Source of the DNA: a virus
Virus record (IMG/VR): IMGVR_UViG_3300012001_000037
Span: 1 to 21,522 of that record
Length of the DNA: 21,522 nt
Reading direction: 5' to 3' (one strand)
The notes below the pieces were generated by a model. The model did no database searches and was not told the origin of the DNA. It saw only the letters and a list, made by a program, of their open reading frames with translations. The number at the start of each line of letters is the position of its first letter. The stretch's first letter is position 1. This document shows positions 1-9,841 of this stretch, piece by piece. The position numbers and the translations under genes were made by a program.

Positions 1-84
1 ACCATTATGCCACCCGGCCATTGGGTGAAACAGTGTCAAAGACACAGAGGCCGGGAAGGGAATCGAACCCTTATTTCAAAGCTA
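1..84 (-). tRNA. Putative circularly permuted tRNA, 5' half running off the window
   Basis: Read on the minus strand, a 3' tRNA half comes first: T-stem 72-68, T-loop TTCGATT 67-61, T-stem 60-56, 3' acceptor strand CCCGGCC 55-49 and a T at the discriminator position. After a 28-base spacer containing the hairpin GTGTC-TTT-GACAC (45-33), a 5' half begins at 19 with GGCCGGG and a D-arm-like start, then leaves the window. The two acceptor strands pair 7 of 7. The start of the 3' half (near 84) is a guess and the anticodon is not in the window. The alternative is a conventional tRNA starting at 183, which leaves an A-G mismatch in the acceptor and needs a large anticodon-loop insertion. Confidence 0.4.
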
Positions 85-121
85 GGGTGTGTATACGGTC
101 GATCAGTGTAGTATTGAAGCT

Positions 122-3688: not shown

Positions 3689-4882
3689 CTAGCCCTTGAC
3701 GCAGAGGATGGTCTGGAGGTGCTGGACAACCTCTACAAGATCCTTCTGGGCATCAAGGACACTATGGATGTCTTTGTACGCGCCCGGAATTTCGTCCACA
3801 ACGCCCTGATCCTTGCGGCACTCGACACCAAGTGTTTGTGCTGCGAGGTCCTCCACCGTGAAGGTGGCCTTGGCCTTGTTTCGGCTCATGCGCCGACCAG
3901 CACCATGGGAGGCTGACTGGAAGGATGCATCGTTGCCGAGGCCGCGCACGATGTAGGACCCGGTACCCATCGATCCGGGGATCAGACCGAGGTCGCCGGA
4001 ACCGGCCCGGATAGCACCCTTACGGGTGACCAGCATGGGACGGCCATCGATCATCTCTTCGGCCACGTAGTTATGGTGACAGGAGATTTCCTGATCGAAG
4101 GTGAGGGCGTTGGTCGGGAAGGAGTCCTTGATGACGCCCTTGAAGAGTTCCATCATGACCTTGCGGGACCGGAGCGCGAACTCCTGTGCCCATGAGAGGT
4201 CAAACCGGTAAGCCGCCATCTCCGGGGTGTTAGCAAGGAACACGGCGAGGTCGGGATCGGCAAGGTCCTGATTCTGCGGGAGCGCCTTCGCGATCTTGAT
4301 GTGCCGTTCGGCCAGTTCCTTGCCGATATTGCGTGAGCCCGAGTGCAGGGTGAGCCAGACACGGCCTTCAGCGTCGAGACACATCTCAAGGAAGTGGTTC
4401 CCACCGCCAAGAGTACCCATCTGGTGCTGTGCACGGCTCTCCAACTGCTGCACACCGGCATGCAGGTCACGGAAGCTGCCCCAGAAGGTGTCCCAACCAC
4501 GGTCGATGCCGAGACGACGGACGTTCGGCATCTTGTCATGCCCATTGAAGCCTACAGGGATGGTGTCTTCGACCCGAAGGCGGATCGAGTGCAGGTCCTC
4601 AGGCAGGTCTGCTGCCGTGAGGGAGGTACGGACGGCAGAGACGCCACAGCCGATGTCAACGCCGACGGCTGACGGCGAGATGGCGTTCTCCATGGCAATG
4701 ACGGAACCGACCGTGGCACCCTTGCCGAGGTGTACGTCAGGCATTACGCGCACACCATGGACCCACTGTAGGGAGGCGATGTTGCGGAGCTGCTGCAGTG
4801 CGGCAGGCTCAACTTCGTGCTCGTGAGCCCACATCAATGTGGAGTGCTTGGCACCGCGAAGTGCGATGGGGAAATCAGTCAT
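3689..4882 (-). CDS. rtcB: RtcB-type RNA ligase
   Basis: A 397-residue protein of the RtcB family, which uses GTP and metal to join RNA ends carrying a 2',3'-cyclic phosphate or 3'-phosphate to a 5'-OH. All hallmark motifs are present: MPDVHLGKG (48-55), VDIGCG with D76 and C79, GGGNHF with N162/H163, LHSGSRN with H180, SCHHN (267-271), GSMGTGSY (303-310) and SHGAGRRMSR with H326, the expected guanylylated His. Length matches the bacterial form and no intein is seen. The ATG has an AAAGGA Shine-Dalgarno. Lying inside a tRNA array, it could repair tRNAs cut by host anticodon nucleases or join the unusual tRNA halves at the left edge; both roles are inferences. Confidence 0.97.
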   Translation of the reverse strand: MTDFPIALRGAKHSTLMWAHEHEVEPAALQQLRNIASLQWVHGVRVMPDVHLGKGATVGSVIAMENAISPSAVGVDIGCGVSAVRTSLTAADLPEDLHSIRLRVEDTIPVGFNGHDKMPNVRRLGIDRGWDTFWGSFRDLHAGVQQLESRAQHQMGTLGGGNHFLEMCLDAEGRVWLTLHSGSRNIGKELAERHIKIAKALPQNQDLADPDLAVFLANTPEMAAYRFDLSWAQEFALRSRKVMMELFKGVIKDSFPTNALTFDQEISCHHNYVAEEMIDGRPMLVTRKGAIRAGSGDLGLIPGSMGTGSYIVRGLGNDASFQSASHGAGRRMSRNKAKATFTVEDLAAQTLGVECRKDQGVVDEIPGAYKDIHSVLDAQKDLVEVVQHLQTILCVKG

Positions 4883-5020: not shown

Positions 5021-5097
5021 TGCCCCCAGAGAGATTCGAACTCCCATGTGTCCAGTTAACCTTTCAACTAGTTCGTAGCCAGAGGGTATATGGAGGC
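5021..5097 (-). pseudogene. Degenerate tRNA-like gene, possibly Phe-derived
   Basis: Acceptor GCCTCCA pairs with TGGGGGC and the T-arm GGGAG-TTCGAAT-CTCTC is good with A73, but the rest is poor. The D-arm has no clear stem. The anticodon region folds as CTAGTT/AACTGG with loop GAAAGGTT, which puts the usual U33 in the stem and leaves GAA at the loop edge. A normal tRNA-Phe(GAA) exists at 7545-7617. It may be a decaying copy, a processing signal or a decoy. The gap from 4906 to 5020 holds nothing else I can support. Confidence 0.45.
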
Positions 5098-6144: not shown

Positions 6145-6172
6145 AGTATACACCAGAATTAGTTGGTGTCAA
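6145..6172 (-). promoter_or_regulatory. Strong promoter before tRNA-Val(TAC)
   Basis: TTGACA (6172-6167, 6/6), a 16-base spacer and TATACT (6150-6145, 5/6). Transcription would begin a few bases before the tRNA-Val 5' end. The promoter lies within a dyad: 6144-6149 and 6172-6177, plus ACACCA/TGGTGT, are complementary. Confidence 0.75.
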
Positions 6173-6180
6173 TACTTCGT

Positions 6181-6226
6181 GACTACCTTCTCGTAATCAA
6201 AGGGGCTTGATTACGTAAAGGTAGTC
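6181..6226 (-). other. Long stable hairpin between tRNA-Ser(CGA) and the tRNA-Val promoter
   Basis: GACTACCTT pairs with AAGGTAGTC and, after a small internal loop, CGTAATCAA pairs with TTGATTACG around a 6-base loop. That is eighteen base pairs in 46 bases with no T-run, so it may be an RNase III-type processing site, a terminator of unusual type or a structured small RNA. Confidence 0.6.
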
Positions 6227-6228
6227 AG

Positions 6229-6312
6229 CGGAAAGCAGAGGGCACGATCCCCACTCCTTACAGAGCGTCCAGTTTTCGAGGCTGGTCCTATCACCTGACA
6301 GGTTTACTTTCC
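6229..6312 (-). tRNA. tRNA-Ser(CGA) with non-canonical T-loop
   Basis: A class II tRNA. Acceptor GGAAAGT/GCTTTCC with G73, D-stem CCT/AGG, anticodon arm CCAGC-CTCGAAA-ACTGG (CGA), then a long variable arm. The T-arm TGGGG-ATCGTGC-CCTCT has A54 and U58 in place of the near-universal U54 and A58. Confidence 0.8.
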
Positions 6313-6379
6313 AAGAATGCCTGAACTCCCGTCACACGCTGTGTTTCGAGCGCTTTCCGGTTCCTTCCCAGACATCCAG

Positions 6380-6463
6380 CGGATAGCAGAGAGACCGAGT
6401 CCCATAGCTTGCACTACCACACGCTTTCCAAGCGTGGCCCGCCACCCGACGGGTTTACTATCC
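6380..6463 (-). tRNA. tRNA-Ser(GGA) with non-canonical T-loop
   Basis: A class II tRNA. Acceptor GGATAGT/GCTATCC with G73, D-stem CCCG/CGGG, perfect anticodon arm CACGC-TTGGAAA-GCGTG (GGA), then a long variable arm. The T-arm TGGGA-CTCGGTC-TCTCT has C54 and G58 and an A53-U61 pair. Confidence 0.82.
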
Positions 6464-6477
6464 ATGTAGTTCTTCGC

Positions 6478-6491
6478 CACAGTGCACTGTG
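6478..6491. repeat. Perfect 14-base palindrome CACAGTGCACTGTG
   Basis: This perfect dyad lies in the spacer between tRNA-Ser(TGA) and tRNA-Ser(GGA), next to a second stem, GTCGG/CCGAC (about 6509-6525). It could be a protein operator or an RNA hairpin. Confidence 0.6.
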
Positions 6492-6533
6492 ACAGGTTAC
6501 AACCCTAGTCGGCTAAGAATCCCGACCAACACG

Positions 6534-6618
6534 CGGAGAGCAGAGAACATGATTCCCACAGTATTACCTGCCAACGGGGTTCAAAGCCGCGCCGGTTCGC
6601 CTGCCCGGTTTACTCTCC
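6534..6618 (-). tRNA. tRNA-Ser(TGA) with non-canonical T-loop
   Basis: A class II tRNA. Acceptor GGAGAGT/GCTCTCC with G73 and D-stem CCGG/CCGG. The anticodon arm is GCGGC-TTTGAAC-CCCGT (TGA) by alignment with the two sister Ser tRNAs, with a weak top pair. A long variable arm follows. The T-arm TGGGA-ATCATGT-TCTCT has A54 and U58. Confidence 0.75.
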
Positions 6619-6622
6619 AAAA

Positions 6623-6732
6623 CAGTTAGTACAGACCGATGACCAACCCGGCGTTTATCCCTCTGGCACCTACCTAGCCGGAGCTAGGTAGGGACGAAGG
6701 GTGAGCAAGTCATTCTGCTCTACTGCTAACTG
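6623..6732 (-). ncRNA. Candidate structured RNA filling a tRNA spacer
   Basis: Nested complementary segments span the whole gap between tRNA-Glu(CTC) and tRNA-Ser(TGA): CAGTTAG/CTAACTG at the ends, then GCAGA/TCTGT, ATGAC/GTCAT, a CACCC/GGGTTG pairing, and a 10-bp central hairpin CCTACCTAGC/GCTAGGTAGG with a 4-base loop (6669-6692). It starts two bases after one tRNA and ends four bases before the next. No tRNA or ORF fits here. Confidence 0.45.

Positions 6733-8208: not shown

Positions 8209-9841
<1,633 letters not shown>

Follow-up and report, generated by a model that had tools for sequence, protein, structure and literature searches.

Positions 1 to 308 of the window, read on the minus strand, probably hold most of one structured noncoding RNA which, together with the DUF7873 protein, makes up a putative ribonucleoprotein (RNP) parallel to Ro60/Y RNA, with a function that we infer below. 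By the window we mean the whole analyzed stretch of viral DNA, 21,522 nucleotides (nt) in length. The RNA contains two tRNA-like modules in which T-arm, acceptor, linker, and D-arm follow each other in circularly permuted order and the 15-48 tertiary pair is retained; an anticodon-like stem carries each module and leads into a conserved core. Covariation is seen in both acceptor stems, in the T and D stems, at the 15-48 tertiary pairs, and in at least three helices of the core. The RNA occurs as a pair with DUF7873.

Layout of the RNA in the window

The features are listed in the table below in the 5′→3′ order of the RNA. Measured from the GAGC helix through H5, the RNA is about 330 nt long, and its 3′ end is outside the window; the 3′ strands of H5, H4, and H3 also lie past the left end of the window and are seen in the related locus L077. 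On the minus strand, a stretch of ~85 nt separates the D-arm of module 1 (176-158) from the T-arm of module 2 (72-56). GAGC stands in the loop of the upstream hairpin in several relatives as well, and its helix, H6, is swapped for GGAC/GTCC and GGCA/TGCC in relatives read by eye. A hairpin of at least 6 bp with a GGATA or GGGTA loop (GGRTA), located 60 to 220 nt past module 2 in L077 and in 50 of 101 other elements, is probably the 3′ end of the RNA or a terminator.

Table. Features of the RNA and the adjacent gene in the window. Pairing percentages refer to the 33 loci of the covariation set.
Feature	Positions	Strand	Basis
DUF7873 gene, 245 aa	321-1058	minus	Pfam PF25283, E = 6e-103; directly upstream of the RNA
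5′ hairpin CCCCGT-TGAGC-ACGGGG, loop with GAGC (301-298)	292-308	minus	sequence; folds in L077
Module 1 T-arm AGTGG-TTCGAGT-CCACT	201-217	minus	T1 stem 99.4% paired
Module 1 acceptor 3′ strand CCCTGCC	194-200	minus	98.3% paired, both-side changes in 7/7 pairs
Module 1 linker ACCAAATCAT, caps the acceptor stem	184-193	minus	linkers 4 to 46 nt across 102 loci
Module 1 acceptor 5′ strand GGCAGGG	177-183	minus	pairing and covariation tests
Module 1 D-arm TAGCCCAAATGGTAGAGGC	158-176	minus	D1 96% paired; 15-48 pair 91%
Conserved core motif CAGATTATCGCTCTAG, between the modules	129-144	minus	identical in Arthrobacter phages; conserved in A2
GCTC, proposed partner of GAGC 301-298 (helix H6, pseudoknot-like)	132-135	minus	H6 (GAGC/GCTC) 87% paired
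5′ strands of H5, H4, and H3	88-115	minus	H5 82%, H4 96%, H3 84% paired, all pairs changing on both sides
Module 2 anticodon-like stem 5′ strand and short variable region	73-83	minus	counterpart in L077; 55% paired, poor alignment across relatives
Module 2 T-arm AAGGG-TTCGATT-CCCTT	56-72	minus	T2 stem 100% paired
Module 2 acceptor 3′ strand CCCGGCC	49-55	minus	100% paired, both-side changes in 7/7 pairs
Module 2 linker, 29 nt, hairpin GTGTC (45-41)/GACAC (37-33)	20-48	minus	sequence
Module 2 acceptor 5′ strand GGCCGGG	13-19	minus	pairing and covariation tests
Module 2 D-arm start TGGCATAATGGT	1-12	minus	cut by the window end; match to covariance model R1

The left edge of the window had been read in an earlier note as a tRNA whose 3′ half precedes its 5′ half and whose anticodon lies beyond the edge. 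CCCGGCC (55-49) and GGCCGGG (19-13) are indeed complementary at all seven positions in permuted order, and the spacer between them carries the GTGTC/GACAC hairpin described there (45-41 and 37-33); the spacer is 29 nt long rather than the 28 given. The neighboring CCCTGCC (200-194) and GGCAGGG (183-177) also pair 7/7, so that there are two successive permuted pairs, while conventional pairing of GGCAGGG with CCCGGCC leaves the A-G mismatch pointed out in the note. A truncated match to R1, a covariance model of the 3′ domain of the RNA built from 28 sequences, covers window positions 128-1 (43.9 bits, E = 8.6e-11). In L077, the region 3′ of the module 2 acceptor 5′ strand holds the anticodon-like stem, helices H3 and H4, and the terminal hairpin, with no further T-arm; a conventional tRNA starting at position 19, the case the note had set against its own claim, was not seen in relatives (checked in L077). 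What remains of the note’s tRNA is thus the 3′-before-5′ order, the acceptor pairing, and, through covariation, their nonrandom origin. A permuted tRNA with an anticodon out of view is not supported: the anticodon-like stem continues into the conserved RNA core, and no bulge-helix-bulge was found in 58 elements.

Acceptor pairing and covariation among relatives

To keep the acceptor test free of circularity, each kind of arm, T or D, was located with a rule of its own that ignores the acceptor. The test set consisted of the 70 of 150 elements in which these rules gave two modules; the remainder, missed by the narrow rules, were left uncounted. Acceptors paired 7/7 in permuted order in 69 of 70 elements for module 1 and 67 of 70 for module 2, compared to 1 of 70 in conventional order. 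The 3′ acceptor strands of these 70 elements comprise 25 and 29 distinct 7-mers for the two modules. When acceptor partners were swapped between loci, 28.5 and 11.8% still paired 7/7; these values are high because many Streptomyces have common acceptors.

For covariation, 33 loci with linkers of at most 12 nt, out of 58 nonredundant ones, were scored over 73 proposed pairs. Pairing was possible in 86.1% of cells, compared to 66.2% in shuffled and 39 to 47% in slid alignments. The covariation score was 0.546 versus 0.192, with none of 500 shuffles as high; because the shuffles ignore relatedness, these figures are not probabilities. Besides the helices given in the table, the D stems are paired in 96% of cells in module 2 as in module 1, and the 15-48 pair of module 2 is formed in 100% of the loci (UA in 28, CG in 5). 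The anticodon-like stems align poorly and are 39 to 67% paired. Mutual information (MI) analysis of the 58 loci returned the same helices and both 15-48 pairs. The minimum free energy (MFE) structure of L077 holds both permuted acceptors, with a slight gain in stability over its own shuffles (z of −1.16).

Linkage of the RNA to DUF7873

Three Arthrobacter phages, Racecar, Talia1610, and Mimi (192- to 194-kb records), have the same layout, unannotated; their acceptors differ yet pair in permuted order (CCCCGGC/GCCGGGG and TCCGGCC/GGCCGGG). An exact search for CAGATTATCGCTCTAG in viral contigs returned 62 stretches, of which many are probably chance matches; those with DUF7873 alone were used further. 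With the DUF7873 protein as bait, we collected 68 viral loci, 73 isolate phage records, and at least 506 bacterial relatives, of which 80 were kept. Under a strict rule (T stem of 5 bp, TTCRA, acceptor paired 7/7, linker shorter than 45 nt, TNR), 149 of 160 DUF7873 loci, near-identical contigs included, have one or more permuted modules in the 900 nt that follow the gene; these 149 include 79 of the 80 bacterial loci. Matches to the rule number 243 in that interval and 6 elsewhere in 1.57 million base pairs (Mb), which excludes chance, as the note had argued. Three of the six off-site matches are displaced elements (L111, L135, and L142), one is a Ro60-linked Y RNA (L146), and two are unexplained (L112 and L113). 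In L111 and L135, the RNA is placed other than just downstream of the DUF7873 gene. Among the 11 loci that failed the strict rule, R1 recovered the element in 7, 2 of them oddly placed. As parsed, 102 of 150 elements have two modules within about 330 nt, near-identical contigs being included in the 102.

Nine isolate phages were also read directly, and modules lie 3′ of the DUF7873 gene in eight of them: the scan gave two modules in GodonK, Keelan, NiceHouse, PA-SR01, and KpLz-2_45 and one in Ronaldo, RHph_TM30, and Vibrio D472, with the second module of Ronaldo recognized by eye. In the Microcoleus phage, no module was found 3′ of the gene by direct reading.

With R1, only full-length matches were counted because short ones (20 to 57 bits) also occur between neighboring tRNAs and in Ro60-linked Y RNAs. 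Full-length matches at E ≤ 2e-10 were obtained in 48 of 72 further sources; these include L234, a phage already in the training set as L091. Of 61 Streptomyces genomes, 32 encode DUF7873, and the full-length RNA was found in 32 of these 32 and in 0 of the 29 others. Many phages and soil bacteria have the RNA beside the DUF7873 gene; it tracks DUF7873 in Streptomyces and in phages that infect actinobacteria, cyanobacteria, Rhizobium, Vibrio, or Klebsiella. The neighbors of the bacterial DUF7873 genes are mixed and gave no lead.

The product of the window gene matches DUF7873 (PF25283) with 344.2 bits at a Pfam cutoff of 27. Its structure is predicted well (pLDDT of 88, pTM of 0.71) and returned 889 Foldseek rows, none at E ≤ 0.001 (best E of 0.021); no TROVE protein was among the matches listed, which carries no weight either way. 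The best VIA match was TolC, with a Z of 7.2 at 12.4 Å over 163 residues, and a shared fold for DUF7873 was rejected. Sequence search of the Protein Data Bank (PDB) gave a best E of 0.08, PADLOC and NCBIfam placed DUF7873 in no family at E ≤ 0.01, and no paper on DUF7873 was found in the open-licence literature. As there is no recognized fold, RNA binding by DUF7873 is a guess from linkage; on this footing, we infer that DUF7873 binds the RNA and consider the complex likely to be an RNP.

Known RNAs, alternative readings, and possible role

ARAGORN predicts 19 tRNAs across the window and none on the permuted element. The cmscan program scored positions 48-183 as one conventional tRNA (29.7 bits versus a cutoff of 29), which would correspond to a tRNA at 183-48 with a long insertion, beside broken tRNA genes; this reading is refuted by the conventional acceptor, which pairs 7/7 in 1 of 70 elements, and its probability is negligible. 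Two circularly permuted tRNA genes, whose ends would be cut and joined, for example by the neighboring RtcB, with RNase P and tRNase Z opening the circles, would explain the 3′-5′ order of the halves, the perfect acceptor stems, the CCA encoded in the module 1 linker of the window, and the RtcB gene at 3689-4882. Short linkers alone do not exclude such genes because, in passages of PMC3978253, archaeal permuted tRNA genes have linkers as short as 1 nt. However, RtcB was found in 0 of 20 other DUF7873 phages searched, a 3-4-3 bulge-helix-bulge in 0 of 58 module 2 junctions (folded with a surrogate cap), and N+CCA in the linkers of only 36 of 102 (module 1) and 23 of 102 (module 2) elements. A plain hairpin takes the place of module 1 on its helix in many loci (by eye, for example, L156, L158, L166, L184, L210, L215, L086, L120, and L126), covariation ties the flanking helices H3 to H6 into a single RNA, and the surroundings hold no further tRNA gene in 26 of 27 bacterial loci. 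Permuted tRNA genes ligated by RtcB are therefore very unlikely and were dropped, on the RtcB counts, the hairpin replacements, and the bulge-helix-bulge test: both modules mimic tRNA within a single larger RNA. They share with the circularly permuted tRNA genes of red and green algae and Thermofilum the 3′ half before the 5′ half and a short linker, but they have no bulge-helix-bulge and no anticodon loop to restore and are replaceable parts of a larger RNA. RtcB is present in three Microbacterium phages, all without DUF7873. In the open-licence literature, none of the titles among the matches listed concerned permuted tRNA genes in phages.

Several other tRNA-like matches were recorded. In L199 (3761-3847), L200 (3750-3839), L202 (3750-3840), and L217 (3756-3842), the element's 5′ domain is called tRNA-Phe or tRNA-Ser by ARAGORN; these look like false calls. 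According to the same program, a neighboring tRNA gene is present in 1 of 27 bacterial loci (L197). In the window, 5021-5097 (minus strand) is a weak tRNA match of 24.4 bits without an ARAGORN call, possibly a degenerate or unusual tRNA. Three related units spaced by 151 to 155 nt lie between tRNA genes at 6160-6700 (minus strand), with direct repeats at 6228-6254/6379-6405/6533-6559 and 6291-6314/6442-6465/6597-6620; on the minus strand they start with GGANAGTAAACC and end with CTCTGCTNTCCGC. They look like a tandem structured RNA; besides a tRNA, their sole Rfam match was at chance level (18.7 bits, E = 0.49).

The closest known relative is YrlA (RF02553). Passages of PMC8394870 describe it as a 90- to 150-nt RNA in which a single tRNA-like domain binds PNPase and a stem binds Rsr, and Y RNA as a tether of PNPase and a DusA/TruB substrate; in passages of PMC11472068, YrlA is a circular permutation of tRNA in three dimensions, and, according to passages of PMC7824862 and PMC12282133, Rsr and Y RNAs may be carried by phages as well. 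Both RNAs have a T-arm, acceptor stem, and D-arm circularly permuted on a stem and mimicking tRNA, and both, in bacteria as in phages, are encoded beside a putative protein partner; the module accordingly works like that of YrlA. The RNA departs from YrlA in three features, namely, size and module number, TROVE linkage, and score: it is about 330 nt long with two modules, its partner gene is DUF7873 and not TROVE, its core is different, and the Rfam YrlA model, run in permissive mode, gave at best 44.7 bits (L096) and 22 to 37 bits on other modules, compared to a cutoff of 69. That cutoff is a poor judge in these lineages because Ro60-linked RNAs near TROVE genes of actinobacteria and phages (L012, L146, L231, L232, and L233) score 25 to 43 bits.

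This equally low score, the identical module topology, the matches of the YrlA model to the modules, and the presence of TROVE in 16 of 27 DUF7873 bacteria are what a true Y RNA would lead one to expect, its 3′ domain being bound by host or phage Ro60/Rsr with DUF7873 as a mere neighbor. We consider this unlikely: TROVE (Ro60) is missing from 17 of 20 DUF7873 phages, with weak matches in the other 3, and from 11 of the 27 bacteria, the RNA tracks DUF7873 exactly, and R1 matches Ro60-linked RNAs over the tRNA-like part alone (about positions 53-115), leaving the core unmatched. Similarly unlikely is a decoy whose elbows would soak up host enzymes or effectors attacking tRNA during infection. 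The RNA is carried in tRNA arrays of large phages with its elbow features intact; however, anticodon nucleases are unlikely targets because it has no anticodon; moreover, it occurs in 32 of 61 Streptomyces genomes, 26 of 27 bacterial loci stand apart from any tRNA gene, and there was no PADLOC match. A cis-acting 3′ element controlling the level of the DUF7873 messenger, without a trans function, would account for a position nearly always on the same strand just downstream of the gene and for the terminator-like GGRTA hairpin that follows in 51 of 102 loci; since L111 and L135 have the RNA elsewhere and its size and tRNA-like detail go beyond the needs of a terminator, we regard this as improbable.

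Other known RNAs resemble the element less. Permuted (two-piece) tmRNA (RF04321) also has a T-arm and acceptor ahead of the 5′ part, but here there are a full D-arm and two modules; its model reached 14.9 bits on L096 (cutoff of 47), over T-arm and acceptor only, and the Rfam scan of the window gave no gathering-level match to it. A G-U at 3:70, corresponding to the G3-U70 alanine identity, occurs in 1 of 102 elements for module 1 and 8 of 102 for module 2. GOLLD and ROOL, large ornate phage RNAs near tRNA genes, were unmatched in Rfam scans, and the ~330-nt RNA was found in no Rfam family. As side observations, Y RNA–like matches near TROVE genes are paired in L012 (805-873 and 1067-1137), L232 (2583-2646 and 2873-2938), and L233 (2778-2895 and 2995-3104), and L012 (Microbacterium phage Zooman) has an unannotated match to bacterial RNase P RNA class A inside its tRNA array (8293-8513, minus strand; 53 bits, E = 1.3e-13, cutoff of 100).

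Returning to an RNP of DUF7873 and the dual-module RNA, we judge it evenly balanced whether this is an undescribed system, separate from Ro60/Y RNA, in which two permuted elbows hold two tRNA-recognizing partners, different or identical, a set distance apart, and which is common to phages of several host phyla and to bacterial chromosomes. No description of this RNA-protein complex was found in open-licence papers, and a search combining tRNA-like, phage, and Streptomyces was empty. DUF7873 would bind the RNA, which may serve as a scaffold, the part that Y RNA plays in the Ro60-Y RNA-PNPase machine. The tRNA-like elbows could recruit tRNA-recognizing enzymes or related RNA binders, such as PNPase, pseudouridine or dihydrouridine synthases, or RNase P, and the RNP would then steer RNA decay or quality control and maintenance. 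For a phage that carries RtcB and at least 19 tRNA genes, this may amount to tRNA and RNA upkeep during infection.

For annotators, it is useful that marginal tRNA calls on this element in annotated genomes would be false. tRNA mimicry by permuted modules was earlier tied to Ro60/Y RNA; here, it occurs twice in one RNA that tracks another, uncharacterized protein. DUF7873 thereby gains a testable role, and the pair offers a second system for asking what tRNA mimics on scaffold RNAs do.
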